The position numbers were made by a program, and so were the translations under genes. A stretch of DNA of 64,000 nucleotides from Candidatus Avelusimicrobium intestinale. Lineage in GTDB: Bacteria > Elusimicrobiota > Elusimicrobia > Elusimicrobiales > Elusimicrobiaceae. Under the pieces are notes generated by a model that did not search any database, had not been told where the DNA came from, and worked only from the letters and a program-made list of their open reading frames with translations. Shown here piece after piece: positions 2,726 through 49,746 of this stretch (position 1 is the first letter of the stretch; each line of letters begins with the position of its first letter). The DNA lies in contig CACWYV010000001.1 in NCBI GenBank assembly GCA_902765225.1, forward strand, positions 372,001-436,000. Reading direction: 5' to 3'.

Positions 2726-2797
2726 GGGCAGTTGGCGCAGTGGTAGCGCGTCCGCCTCACACGCGGAAGGTCACAGGTTCAAATCCTGTACTGCCCA
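2726..2797 (+). tRNA. tRNA-Val (anticodon CAC)
   Basis: A full cloverleaf can be folded by eye. The acceptor stem is GGGCAGT/ACTGCCC with discriminator A, the D-arm starts GCGC-AGTGGTA-GCGC, and the anticodon stem is TCCGC/GCGGA with loop CTCACAC, so the anticodon is CAC and reads GUG. The T-arm is ACAGG-TTCAAAT-CCTGT. CCA is not encoded. An intrinsic terminator follows six nt later. The gene is flanked on both sides by partial copies of itself (2623-2639 and 2989-3008). Confidence 0.96.
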
Positions 2798-2802
2798 AAT
2801 TT

Positions 2803-2833
2803 AAAAAAAACACCTTTAAAAAGGTGTTTTTTT
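2803..2833 (+). terminator. Intrinsic terminator of tRNA-Val
   Basis: The hairpin CACCTTT/AAAGGTG with a 2-nt loop is extended by an A-tract pairing with a T-tract. It starts just past the tRNA 3' end, so the tRNA precursor should end here. Confidence 0.85.
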
Positions 2834-2836
2834 AAT

Positions 2837-2997
2837 GGCAGTAAGCGGGCAAACTGCTTTGCCCGCGTCAGGATTTGAAGCCCGGAGCGATGTTTTTGTT
2901 TGAGGGCGAAGCGCGAAAGGCAAAAACCGCGAGGGCGGGCCCGGGCGAAATTTCCGTCAGGAAATTTACGCAGGGCAAATCGTGTATAGTACTGCCC
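2837..2997 (+). repeat. tRNA-linked element, Val copy
   Basis: A 161-nt element lies between the tRNA-Val terminator and a second terminator. It opens with GGCAGTA (2837-2843) and closes with TACTGCC (2990-2996), perfectly complementary and matching the acceptor stem of tRNA-Val. Inside is a 9-bp hairpin with a CTGC loop (2845-2866), then a T-arm-like stretch (GGATTTGAAGCCC), a GC-rich body with further hairpins, and a perfect AAATTTCC/GGAAATTT hairpin. The body aligns by eye with the element behind tRNA-Ser. The last 20 nt with flank (2989-3008) repeat tRNA-Val 3' end plus flank (2788-2807) exactly. No protein is credible here. Function unknown: RNA family, cryptic integrated element or decayed tRNA duplication. 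Confidence 0.7.
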
Positions 2998-3003
2998 AAA
3001 TTT

Positions 3004-3029
3004 AAAAAGCACCCGGGAGGGTGCTTTTT
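3004..3029. terminator. Second, bidirectional terminator
   Basis: A perfect 11-bp hairpin, AAAAAGCACCC/GGGTGCTTTTT with a GGGA loop, works on both strands. On the plus strand it closes the tRNA-linked element; on the minus strand it lies just beyond the stop of the gene ending at 3049. Confidence 0.85.
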
Positions 3030-3048
3030 AAAATGGTGCTATATCTTG

Positions 3049-3780
3049 TTAATCTACTTTTTTATCCTCTAAATTCCAATACATCCAATTTTGGTGTTGT
3101 TCCTGTACCGGGCCGAAAATAGATTCCGCCAGTCGCTGCCCTCGTTCATATTCTTTATTGGACCGGATTTGAAGCCGTCCGTTTGCTGTAGATACGATAT
3201 CCAGATGATATCCTCCGCCTCTGTCGTGCATTTCCATGAAAGCTTCCCAATAACATCCCTGCGGGGCGCATTGGTAATGTTCCAAACGAAAGTTAAAAAA
3301 TGGGCCGAGGGAATAAGTGTCCGGCCGGGATATGAAATTCCCGCCGGGACTTATTTGTATATTAAAATTAATTTCGTCCCACGCGCACCAACGGCCTTTT
3401 TCCTCTATGCAGCGTGTGGTAGCCCGGTTAAGCTCTTTCATGATCGGCATCATGGAAAGAAATCGTTTGCCATAGGGGTCGTCTGTTTTAAAGACTAAAT
3501 CGGAAGAAAAGGAGTCCCGGTGGGAAGGGTTGGGGTCGGTTGCCAATTCGGTTGATTCCGGTGAAAGTTCCATTTCGCGGGCGGTTTGCGGGGGGACCTC
3601 AAGAGGTGCCGGCTCGTTGAATGCTTCCGGGGTGGTTGGCTCGTCCTGTTGTGTGATTTTTGCCGTTTGTACGGATTTTCCCAGGTGACTTGCTTCCCAC
3701 AGCAAAACTCCGAGCATGAGAATAAAAAGACAAGAAAAAATACTGACCCAAAATAACACGGCGCGCTTTTCGTCCGACAT
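3049..3780 (-). CDS. Membrane-anchored hypothetical protein, paralogue of the next gene
   Basis: I do not recognise a named family for this 243-aa protein. Residues about 9-29 form one N-terminal membrane anchor, followed by a Pro/Glu/Thr-rich linker (about 40-85) and a globular C-terminal domain of about 140 residues that is presumably outside the membrane. That domain has four cysteines (TRCIEEKGRWCAW and CAPQGCYWEAF) and ends NWMYWNLEDKKVD. The same domain, clearly homologous over its full length, forms the lipoprotein encoded 138 nt upstream at 3919-4470, so the pair arose by duplication with different membrane attachment. The ATG at 3780 follows a GGAG ribosome binding site. Function unknown. 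Confidence 0.8.
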   Translation of the reverse strand: MSDEKRAVLFWVSIFSCLFILMLGVLLWEASHLGKSVQTAKITQQDEPTTPEAFNEPAPLEVPPQTAREMELSPESTELATDPNPSHRDSFSSDLVFKTDDPYGKRFLSMMPIMKELNRATTRCIEEKGRWCAWDEINFNIQISPGGNFISRPDTYSLGPFFNFRLEHYQCAPQGCYWEAFMEMHDRGGGYHLDIVSTANGRLQIRSNKEYERGQRLAESIFGPVQEQHQNWMYWNLEDKKVD

Positions 3781-3918: not shown

Positions 3919-4470
3919 TCAATCTACTTTCTTATATTCTAAATTCCAGTACATCCAATCTCCGTGTCGTTCCTGTACCGGGCCGAAAAGAGATTCTGCT
4001 AATAGTTGCCCTTGTCTGTACTTTCTGTTAGACCGGATCTGAAGCCGTCCGTTCCCGGTAGATACAATATCCACGTGGTAATTTCGGCCTTCGTGCATTT
4101 CCATGAATGCTTCCCAATAATATCCTTGGGGCGCCCATTGATCATAATAATAGGTCAAACGGAAATCAAAAATTTGATTAACGCGGTAAGTCCCCGGGGT
4201 GGTAATTAATTGTCTGTTTGCATCCCGCACAGAAAAATTGACTTCGTCCCAGGTGCACCAGCGGCCTGTTTCCCTAAGGCAATGCGTAGTTGCACGGTTA
4301 AGTCCTTCCATGAAAGGCAACATTGAAAGCAATTGTTGTTCATAAACTTCCGGTGGGTATAAAGGATTTGTTTCATACAAGAAATCATTGGATTCCGGCA
4401 TGCCATTTACAAAACCCATACAACCTGTCAGTAATAGAATTATCGGCAAGCAACACATTATCTTTTTCAT
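3919..4470 (-). CDS. Lipoprotein, paralogue of the preceding protein
   Basis: This is a predicted 183-aa lipoprotein. I start it at the ATG at 4470 because AAGGAG lies eight bases upstream and the product then begins MKKIMCCLPIILLLTGCMG, a signal peptide with lipobox LTGC. The mature part is one domain of about 140 residues sharing long blocks with the protein at 3049-3780, for example YWEAFMEMH, VSTxNGRLQIRSN and WMYWNLEYKKVD. The paired cysteines of the paralogue's APQGCYWEAF are replaced here (APQGYYWEAF). The paralogue is membrane-anchored by a helix, this one by lipid. Role unknown. Confidence 0.8.
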   Translation of the reverse strand: MKKIMCCLPIILLLTGCMGFVNGMPESNDFLYETNPLYPPEVYEQQLLSMLPFMEGLNRATTHCLRETGRWCTWDEVNFSVRDANRQLITTPGTYRVNQIFDFRLTYYYDQWAPQGYYWEAFMEMHEGRNYHVDIVSTGNGRLQIRSNRKYRQGQLLAESLFGPVQERHGDWMYWNLEYKKVD

Positions 4471-4600
4471 ACTTAAACTCCTTAACAACGTGGGATTCTA
4501 TATATGGAACACCCAATTGTAACAAATTATTGCAGAAATAGGATAATGGAAAGTCATTCTTGAGGGTTTGCGTTTTTGTGACTTTTAGTAGTGGCTGTTC

Positions 4601-5191: not shown

Positions 5192-5368
5192 ACGGAGAGG
5201 GAGAGATTCGGTCACAAGTCGCCTTACTGACGTGCGGCGCTCGCGACCCCGCCTCGCCATGCTCGCCTTTCGTGCTTGCCGGTACGGCTCGCACTCAAAC
5301 TCGCATAAGGCTCCGGCTTTCGAATCTCTACGCCACACCAAGCAGTTGGTATGGCTTCCATTTCTCCG
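5192..5368 (-). repeat. tRNA-linked element, Ser copy
   Basis: Read on the minus strand, this 177-nt element starts CGGAGAA (5368-5362), resembling the tRNA-Ser acceptor, and ends CTCTCCG (5198-5192), which can pair with it over 6 bp. Next to the 5' end is a 10-bp hairpin with a CTGC loop (5355-5332), then GATTCGAAAGCCGGAGC, a near copy of GATTTGAAGCCCGGAGC in the Val element. Further shared blocks are GTTTGAG-GCGA, CGAAAGGC and GGCGAGG-GGGG. The final 18 nt (5192-5209) are an exact direct repeat of the tRNA-Ser 3' end (5405-5422). Open frames across it are artefacts of GC-rich sequence. Confidence 0.7.
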
Positions 5369-49685: not shown

Positions 49686-49746
49686 GGATAGACTTTGTTG
49701 AGTGCAGCATCCCAACGCAGGGCAAGCAGTTGCCCTGCTTTCCTAC
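49686..49746 (-). repeat. tRNA-linked element, Tyr copy (short)
   Basis: Read on the minus strand, GTAGGAAA resembles the tRNA-Tyr acceptor (GGTAGGG). Next comes a perfect 9-bp hairpin with a CTGC loop (49738-49717), then GTTGGGATGCTGCACTC. It corresponds to the first third of the Val and Ser elements; their GC-rich body is missing. TATCCTAATTTTACCC at about 49691-49676 may be a decayed copy of the tRNA 3' end plus flank. The hairpin is the shared hallmark; the outer boundary is approximate. Confidence 0.6.

Follow-up and report, generated by a model that had tools for sequence, protein, structure and literature searches.

The elements so far known at tRNA genes each have a single target, recognised by the integrase that they carry. 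Among small palindromic repeats, the CGTC repeats have also been described without a known dedicated transposase (PMC3733652), and template switching has been reported to generate perfect hairpins and to keep them perfect (PMC8794818). The locus presented here lies in a 64,000-nucleotide window (the whole stretch of DNA that was analysed) of Candidatus Avelusimicrobium intestinale, whose genome is 1.41 Mb long and 98.9% complete and whose closest named relatives in the search were rumen and gut Elusimicrobiaceae. An initial annotation had described behind tRNA-Val an element of no described family. This statement is upheld, since neither the gathering nor the relaxed thresholds of Rfam 15 gave a family besides tRNAs and no description of the element was found in the open-access literature. 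The element is a member of a real, large family, undescribed as far as the literature and databases searched show, and its kind is matched to none known.

Organisation of the element behind tRNA-Val(CAC)

The host and target, tRNA-Val(CAC) (window positions 2726..2797, plus strand), was delimited by the tRNA call, the tRNA boundary and the direct repeat. On the same strand it is followed by a proximal terminator (approximately 2804..2833, inverted repeat I3), which is a duplicated copy separating the tRNA from the element, by the element of 161 nt (2837-2997), and by a distal terminator (approximately 3005..3031) to which the single terminator of the empty site L254 in a related genome corresponds. 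The placement between two terminators, the GGCAGTA start at 2837 and the TACTGCC end were already in the initial annotation and are confirmed in the sequence, TACTGCC ending at 2996. The 20-nt repeat reported there (2788-2807 and 2989-3008) is exact, and the insertion-like layout holds, with the tRNA 3' end repeated directly on either side of the element. The point of insertion is the T-loop, adjoining C56 (TTC/AAATCC, the slash marking the junction).

The features described below are all on the plus strand. The outer left arm GGCAGTA (2837..2843) is, by its sequence, the reverse complement of the 3' strand of the tRNA acceptor. The left arm is then split by the P2 hairpin (2845..2866), made of a 9-bp stem and a CTGC tetraloop (GCGGGCAAA-CTGC-TTTGCCCGC in the window copy), of which the loop is kept in 85/99 copies and the stem is variable. 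The inner left arm CAGGATTTGAA (2869..2879), identified by sequence and arm comparison, corresponds in reverse complement to tRNA positions 54-64 (TTCAAATCCTG); GGCAGTA and CAGGATTTGAA form one antisense arm interrupted by the CTGC hairpin. The core comprises the conserved and covarying hairpin P4 (2880..2936; GCCCGGAGCG ... CGCGAGGGC) and the hairpin P5 (2939..2976; tip CCGTCAGG), which was defined from the fold, the covariance model and covariation. The right arm (2976..2997; CAAATC-GTGTATA-GTACTGCCC) repeats the tRNA 3' end in direct orientation from the T-loop onward, and its T-stem part is altered relative to the tRNA. The predicted fold of the 161 nt has -74.2 kcal/mol (z = -5.1), and no shuffled sequence is equally stable. 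These 161 nt contain no gene, and none of the listed ORFs of at least 100 aa falls inside them.

The term "tRNA-mimicking" proved a poor fit, because the parts in question are the tRNA 3' end in reverse complement and in direct copy, and do not make a tRNA fold. The supposed T-arm-like sequence GGATTTGAAGCCC is not a T-arm, and what stands there is the complementary CAGGATTTGAA. Neither a cloverleaf nor an acceptor/T minihelix with a T-loop was found, and ARAGORN detects no tRNA in the element; the inner arm has the tRNA sequence in reverse complement, and in the predicted fold the 3' half of the T-loop is paired. Of the two further copies announced in the window, the one behind tRNA-Ser(GGA) (approximately 5193..5368, minus strand) is intact and built on the same plan, with Ser-specific arms and a second core type. 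The one behind tRNA-Tyr (approximately 49703..49746, minus strand) turned out to be a truncated remnant with the outer arm, P2 and the start of the inner arm.

Other small elements and modules were observed near tRNA genes. Upstream of tRNA-Val(CAC), at 2618-2725 of the window, a different small element contains a copy of the tRNA 5' half (GGGCAGTTGGCGCAGTG), then CTTGTAACATAAG, an anticodon-stem-like hairpin and the fold-back GCCAACTG. Elements of this type occur in tandem, three before tRNA-Val(GAC) (L009) and two in another species (L259), and they are possibly a mirror-image family targeting the D-loop. At tRNA-Glu TTC (L031, G000:C3) a second type of 3' element carries GCCTTCTAGGGCAGAAGCGAACTCC, which is again the tRNA 3' end in reverse complement, altered, and occurs twice around a different core, and partial direct copies of the tRNA 3' half lie about 100-220 nt downstream of tRNA-Ala GGC (L056) and tRNA-Val TAC (L032), without a core. 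Directly downstream of the Val element, two neighbouring hypothetical ORFs of similar sequence (window 3049-3780 and 3919-4488, minus strand) are apparently paralogues; in other species the genes downstream of tRNA-Val loci differ from this pair.

Distribution of the family and comparison of arms with cores

DNA search of the same genome revealed strong copies behind further tRNAs, and on reading of the tRNA loci an element was seen at Val(CAC), Val(GAC), Met, Gln(CTG), Gln(TTG), Ser(CGA) (three times), Ser(GGA), Ser(TGA), Pro(CGG) (twice), Thr(TGT), Leu(CAA) and Arg(CCG), and at Tyr a remnant. In this genome the covariance model R1 gave 18 matches, 14 of them with a listed place. Of these 14, all but one stand behind a tRNA (13 matches), and the last is an orphan. 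This orphan carries tRNA-Asp arms and is located 15.5 kb from tRNA-Asp, the gap being occupied by an island with a large serine recombinase (G000:C1:264117-279818, L186) downstream of tRNA-Asp. Element-bearing tRNAs are on the presumed lagging side in 9/13 cases, against 12/31 for other tRNAs (p = 0.10).

Beyond the three loci on which the initial annotation had proposed to build a covariance model, matches were obtained in dozens of other genomes. R1 matched 52 of the 60 genomes of the family (44/49 good ones), with 0 to 25 copies per genome. With stricter filters than for the family set, matches came from 70/199 genomes of the Elusimicrobiota phylum sample and from 32/287 Patescibacteria; in these three sets almost every match is behind a tRNA. 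In a collection of 84,980 species, 41 stretches contain an exact 22-base core string, 38 from Elusimicrobiota and 3 from Patescibacteria, and one and the same core follows tRNAs with at least 12 amino-acid identities, in two phyla. Three Patescibacteria genomes have 19, 9 and 7 copies, and at 21/21 further Patescibacteria loci read a tRNA stands just upstream. A few copies of this phylum are directly behind the ends of protein genes, and their arms fit the end of the gene concerned (L147, L160, L165), two of these genes being apparently, by eye, ribosomal protein genes. Plasmid and phage collections gave no match to the element, and the lone match among viral contigs reads as a chromosomal tRNA-Ser-type array at the end of its contig, not as a phage.

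Tandem arrays were also seen behind tRNAs, as at tRNA-Asp, where different core types are stacked behind one gene (L099, L102). Single-gene modules between element copies (L078 1-2640, L102 150-1800), ankyrin-, Sel1- and Fic-like by eye, share the leader TATTTTAGTTTT...GGCAGGAAGTCG and the end GCACCTTGCTGCC. A Sel1-like ORF of 156 aa with identical sequence was observed at tRNA-Ser in one species and beside a tRNA-Asp-type copy in the genome studied here.

The arms are specific to the tRNA beside which they lie. In 99 copies anchored on the universal TTC, an average of 6.80 of the eight variable T-arm positions agree with the resident tRNA, whereas permuted tRNA partners gave a mean of 4.78 and a maximum of 5.18 in 2000 permutations over the same positions, kinship among copies inflating the precision of this test and not its direction. 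The cores behave differently from the arms: among 72 distinct cores, the nearest core was in another genome and at another tRNA in 41 cases, in another genome and at the same tRNA in 24, and in the same genome at another tRNA in 7. The Ser(TGA) and Leu(CAA) cores are 98% alike and their arms are unlike. These comparisons between loci support, indirectly, a mobility of the cores, which would move from locus to locus while the arms do not travel along.

Presence and absence were read by eye at the tRNA-Val(CAC) locus of one genus, the loci being found via a neighbouring protein gene as anchor: 12 of the 23 are occupied, 8 are empty (L269 included) and 3 hold remnants, the occupied and empty loci compared belonging to different species. 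Some remnants retain only the terminator, the outer arm and half of P2, a state that loss through recombination between the direct repeats on both sides would be expected to leave.

These data bear on an explanation without any transposition, in which old duplications of tRNA 3' ends had their imperfect palindromes perfected in place by replication template switching, with homologous recombination and gene conversion as the means by which the cores were spread. L089 is an example of the chimeric cores that do exist, and template switching would also account for the missing G.U intermediates considered below. However, a conserved core in two phyla (exact 22-mers) together with empty sites requires a transfer step, and the copying of a whole right arm would erase P2. 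We regard this explanation as quite improbable.

Covariation and DNA-like pairing

In 107 distinct copies, all 44/44 model pairs show changes on both sides and 93.1% of cells are paired. The covariation score is 0.582 versus 0.163 for shuffled and at most 0.094 for slid alignments, figures which lean towards the model to which the alignment was fitted. In three model pairs wobble pairing predominates or is frequent. When these columns are excluded, the element presents 3883 Watson-Crick cells, 43 G.U and 271 other mismatches, so that G.U makes up 43/314 of the non-Watson-Crick cells. In the T and acceptor stems of the tRNAs at the same loci it makes up 84/94 (84 G.U, 10 mismatches; Fisher p about 5e-43). 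G.U being no more frequent than other mismatches, it is not treated as a pair in the element. This suggests that selection or copying acts at the DNA level, on hairpin DNA rather than RNA, and the same pattern could come from template switching (PMC8794818). Under DNA parameters, the fold of the tRNA-sense strand is better than that of its complement in 109/110 cases.

The initial annotation had left a choice between a non-coding RNA and a miniature element, of which the second stands and the first has become less likely on account of this DNA-like pairing. A structured RNA would be produced by read-through from the tRNA promoter, its left arm pairing in trans with the tRNA 3' half as guide, antisense or decoy, and the arm split around P2 would make a three-way junction with the target tRNA. 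The maintenance of the arms and of P2 with strong covariation speaks for such a function, and in a rough parse the left arm of many copies fits the intact tRNA better than their own altered right arm. Nevertheless, G.U pairs are no commoner than other mismatches, unlike in tRNA stems of the same genomes, a terminator stands between the tRNA and the element, the elements are patchy between species and often decayed, and they have no Rfam relative, which together make an RNA of this kind unlikely.

The two arms of a copy are related to each other in a reciprocal manner. When the right arm is an intact copy of the tRNA, the left arm has a mismatch in 23/34 cases, and left arms paired with an altered right arm are perfect in 22/27 (p = 0.0002, the copies not being independent). 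Perfect pairing of left and right arms may thus be disfavoured by something.

Candidate enzymes, proposed mechanism and known systems

The search for an enzyme covered five types of proteins, none of which tracks the element. The Y1 transposase is absent from the genome studied here (G000) and from the element-rich G009, G013, G036, G044 and G210, and is present in G034 and G001, which have zero copies. Reverse transcriptase is absent from G000, G009, G036, G044, G012, G208, G209, G260 and G371, and the IS110 DEDD transposase was found in only 1/20 genomes, which is not the genome studied here. Tyrosine recombinase counts do not track element copy number, and the four examined are Xer-like. 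Integron integrase (TIGR02249) exceeded the curated cut-off in 0/20 genomes, and none is above it in the genome studied here. Single absences are weak, draft genomes being liable to miss genes, and the pattern is consistent over rich genomes that are 94-99% complete. Two other candidates were rejected: a retroviral-type primer binding site, as the outer arm does not begin with the complement of CCA, and an H/ACA-like guide, which has a similar topology with no known modification at the junction. We know of no bacterial H/ACA-like guide system.

The integrase result bears directly on the possibility that the element is the attC-like recombination site of an as yet undescribed gene-cassette system anchored at tRNA genes, whose cassettes, empty or one-gene, would end in the folded site and stack behind the tRNA. 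The arrays, the single-gene modules separating copies in L078 and L102 and the strand-asymmetric folded palindrome with imperfect arms resemble attC (PMC8946536). Most copies are gene-free, though, and the modules may be a separate element sharing the tRNA. Moreover, among 99 copies GTTRRRY boxes were found at only 5 right ends and RYYYAAC at 1 left end. Taken with the integrase result, a cassette system appears doubtful.

The reading that we prefer, and to which we give about an even chance, is a small non-autonomous mobile element that acts as folded single-stranded DNA, targets the tRNA T-loop and has its arms rewritten from the target. Insertion would occur in the T-loop of tRNA genes beside C56 (TTC/RANYC), the tRNA being kept whole by duplication of its 3' end and terminator on both sides; this T-loop insertion with tRNA restoration is well supported. 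The core (P4, P5) and P2 would be the element's own and both arms would derive from the target, the right one as the duplicated tRNA 3' end and the left one as its reverse complement around P2. The core would travel between tRNA loci and between genomes, presumably as single-stranded DNA with an enzyme supplied in trans. Because arms are unlike on near-identical cores, we infer from the sequences compared that arms may be rewritten from the new target at or soon after insertion, probably by repair synthesis or template switching. Against a mobile element, the search described above found no enzyme for mobility, none of the simple steps known would produce a reverse complement interrupted by a hairpin, and the three wobble-rich model pairs would also be allowed by RNA.

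We tentatively consider, as a possible but less than even prospect, that the element is programmed by its target, each insertion leaving within the element a complement of the target that was hit, after which the split left arm would serve as a built-in address. One core could then occupy many tRNA genes without a sequence-specific integrase of its own, and its targets would include some protein-gene ends in Patescibacteria. Rewriting of the arms on insertion would, if it occurs, give mobile elements a new means of target addressing; in the absence of rewriting there is still a large unannotated family, which shapes tRNA loci in Elusimicrobiota and Patescibacteria and, in annotation, mimics island boundaries and tRNA fragments.

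Among known systems, integron attC sites and cassettes share with the element an imperfect palindrome that folds single-stranded, strand asymmetry, tandem stacking at a fixed anchor and some gene-bearing units. The element differs in having no integron integrase over the cut-off, a rare or absent R'/R'' consensus, arms that match the tRNA gene and many anchors per genome instead of one attI. REP and CGTC-tagged palindromes and the RAYT (Y1) systems are likewise small non-coding palindromes in many copies. Those repeats measure 20-40 bp, whereas the element has 161 nt and several helices, is tied to tRNA genes with arms tailored to the locus, and resides in a genome without a Y1 gene. The tRNA-targeting integrative elements (islands, satellites) similarly keep the gene whole through a duplicated tRNA 3' end, but the present element, of about 160-200 nt, has no integrase, hits many different tRNAs in one genome and carries a reverse-complement arm. 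Miniature inverted-repeat transposable elements are also short, non-coding, palindromic and patchy between genomes; here, in contrast, the terminal inverted repeats come from the target and not from a parent transposon, and the ends differ at every locus. On a more cautious view, the family could be a new variant of palindromic bacterial repeats. We rate it as new in kind, since for every known kind tested some defining feature is missing.
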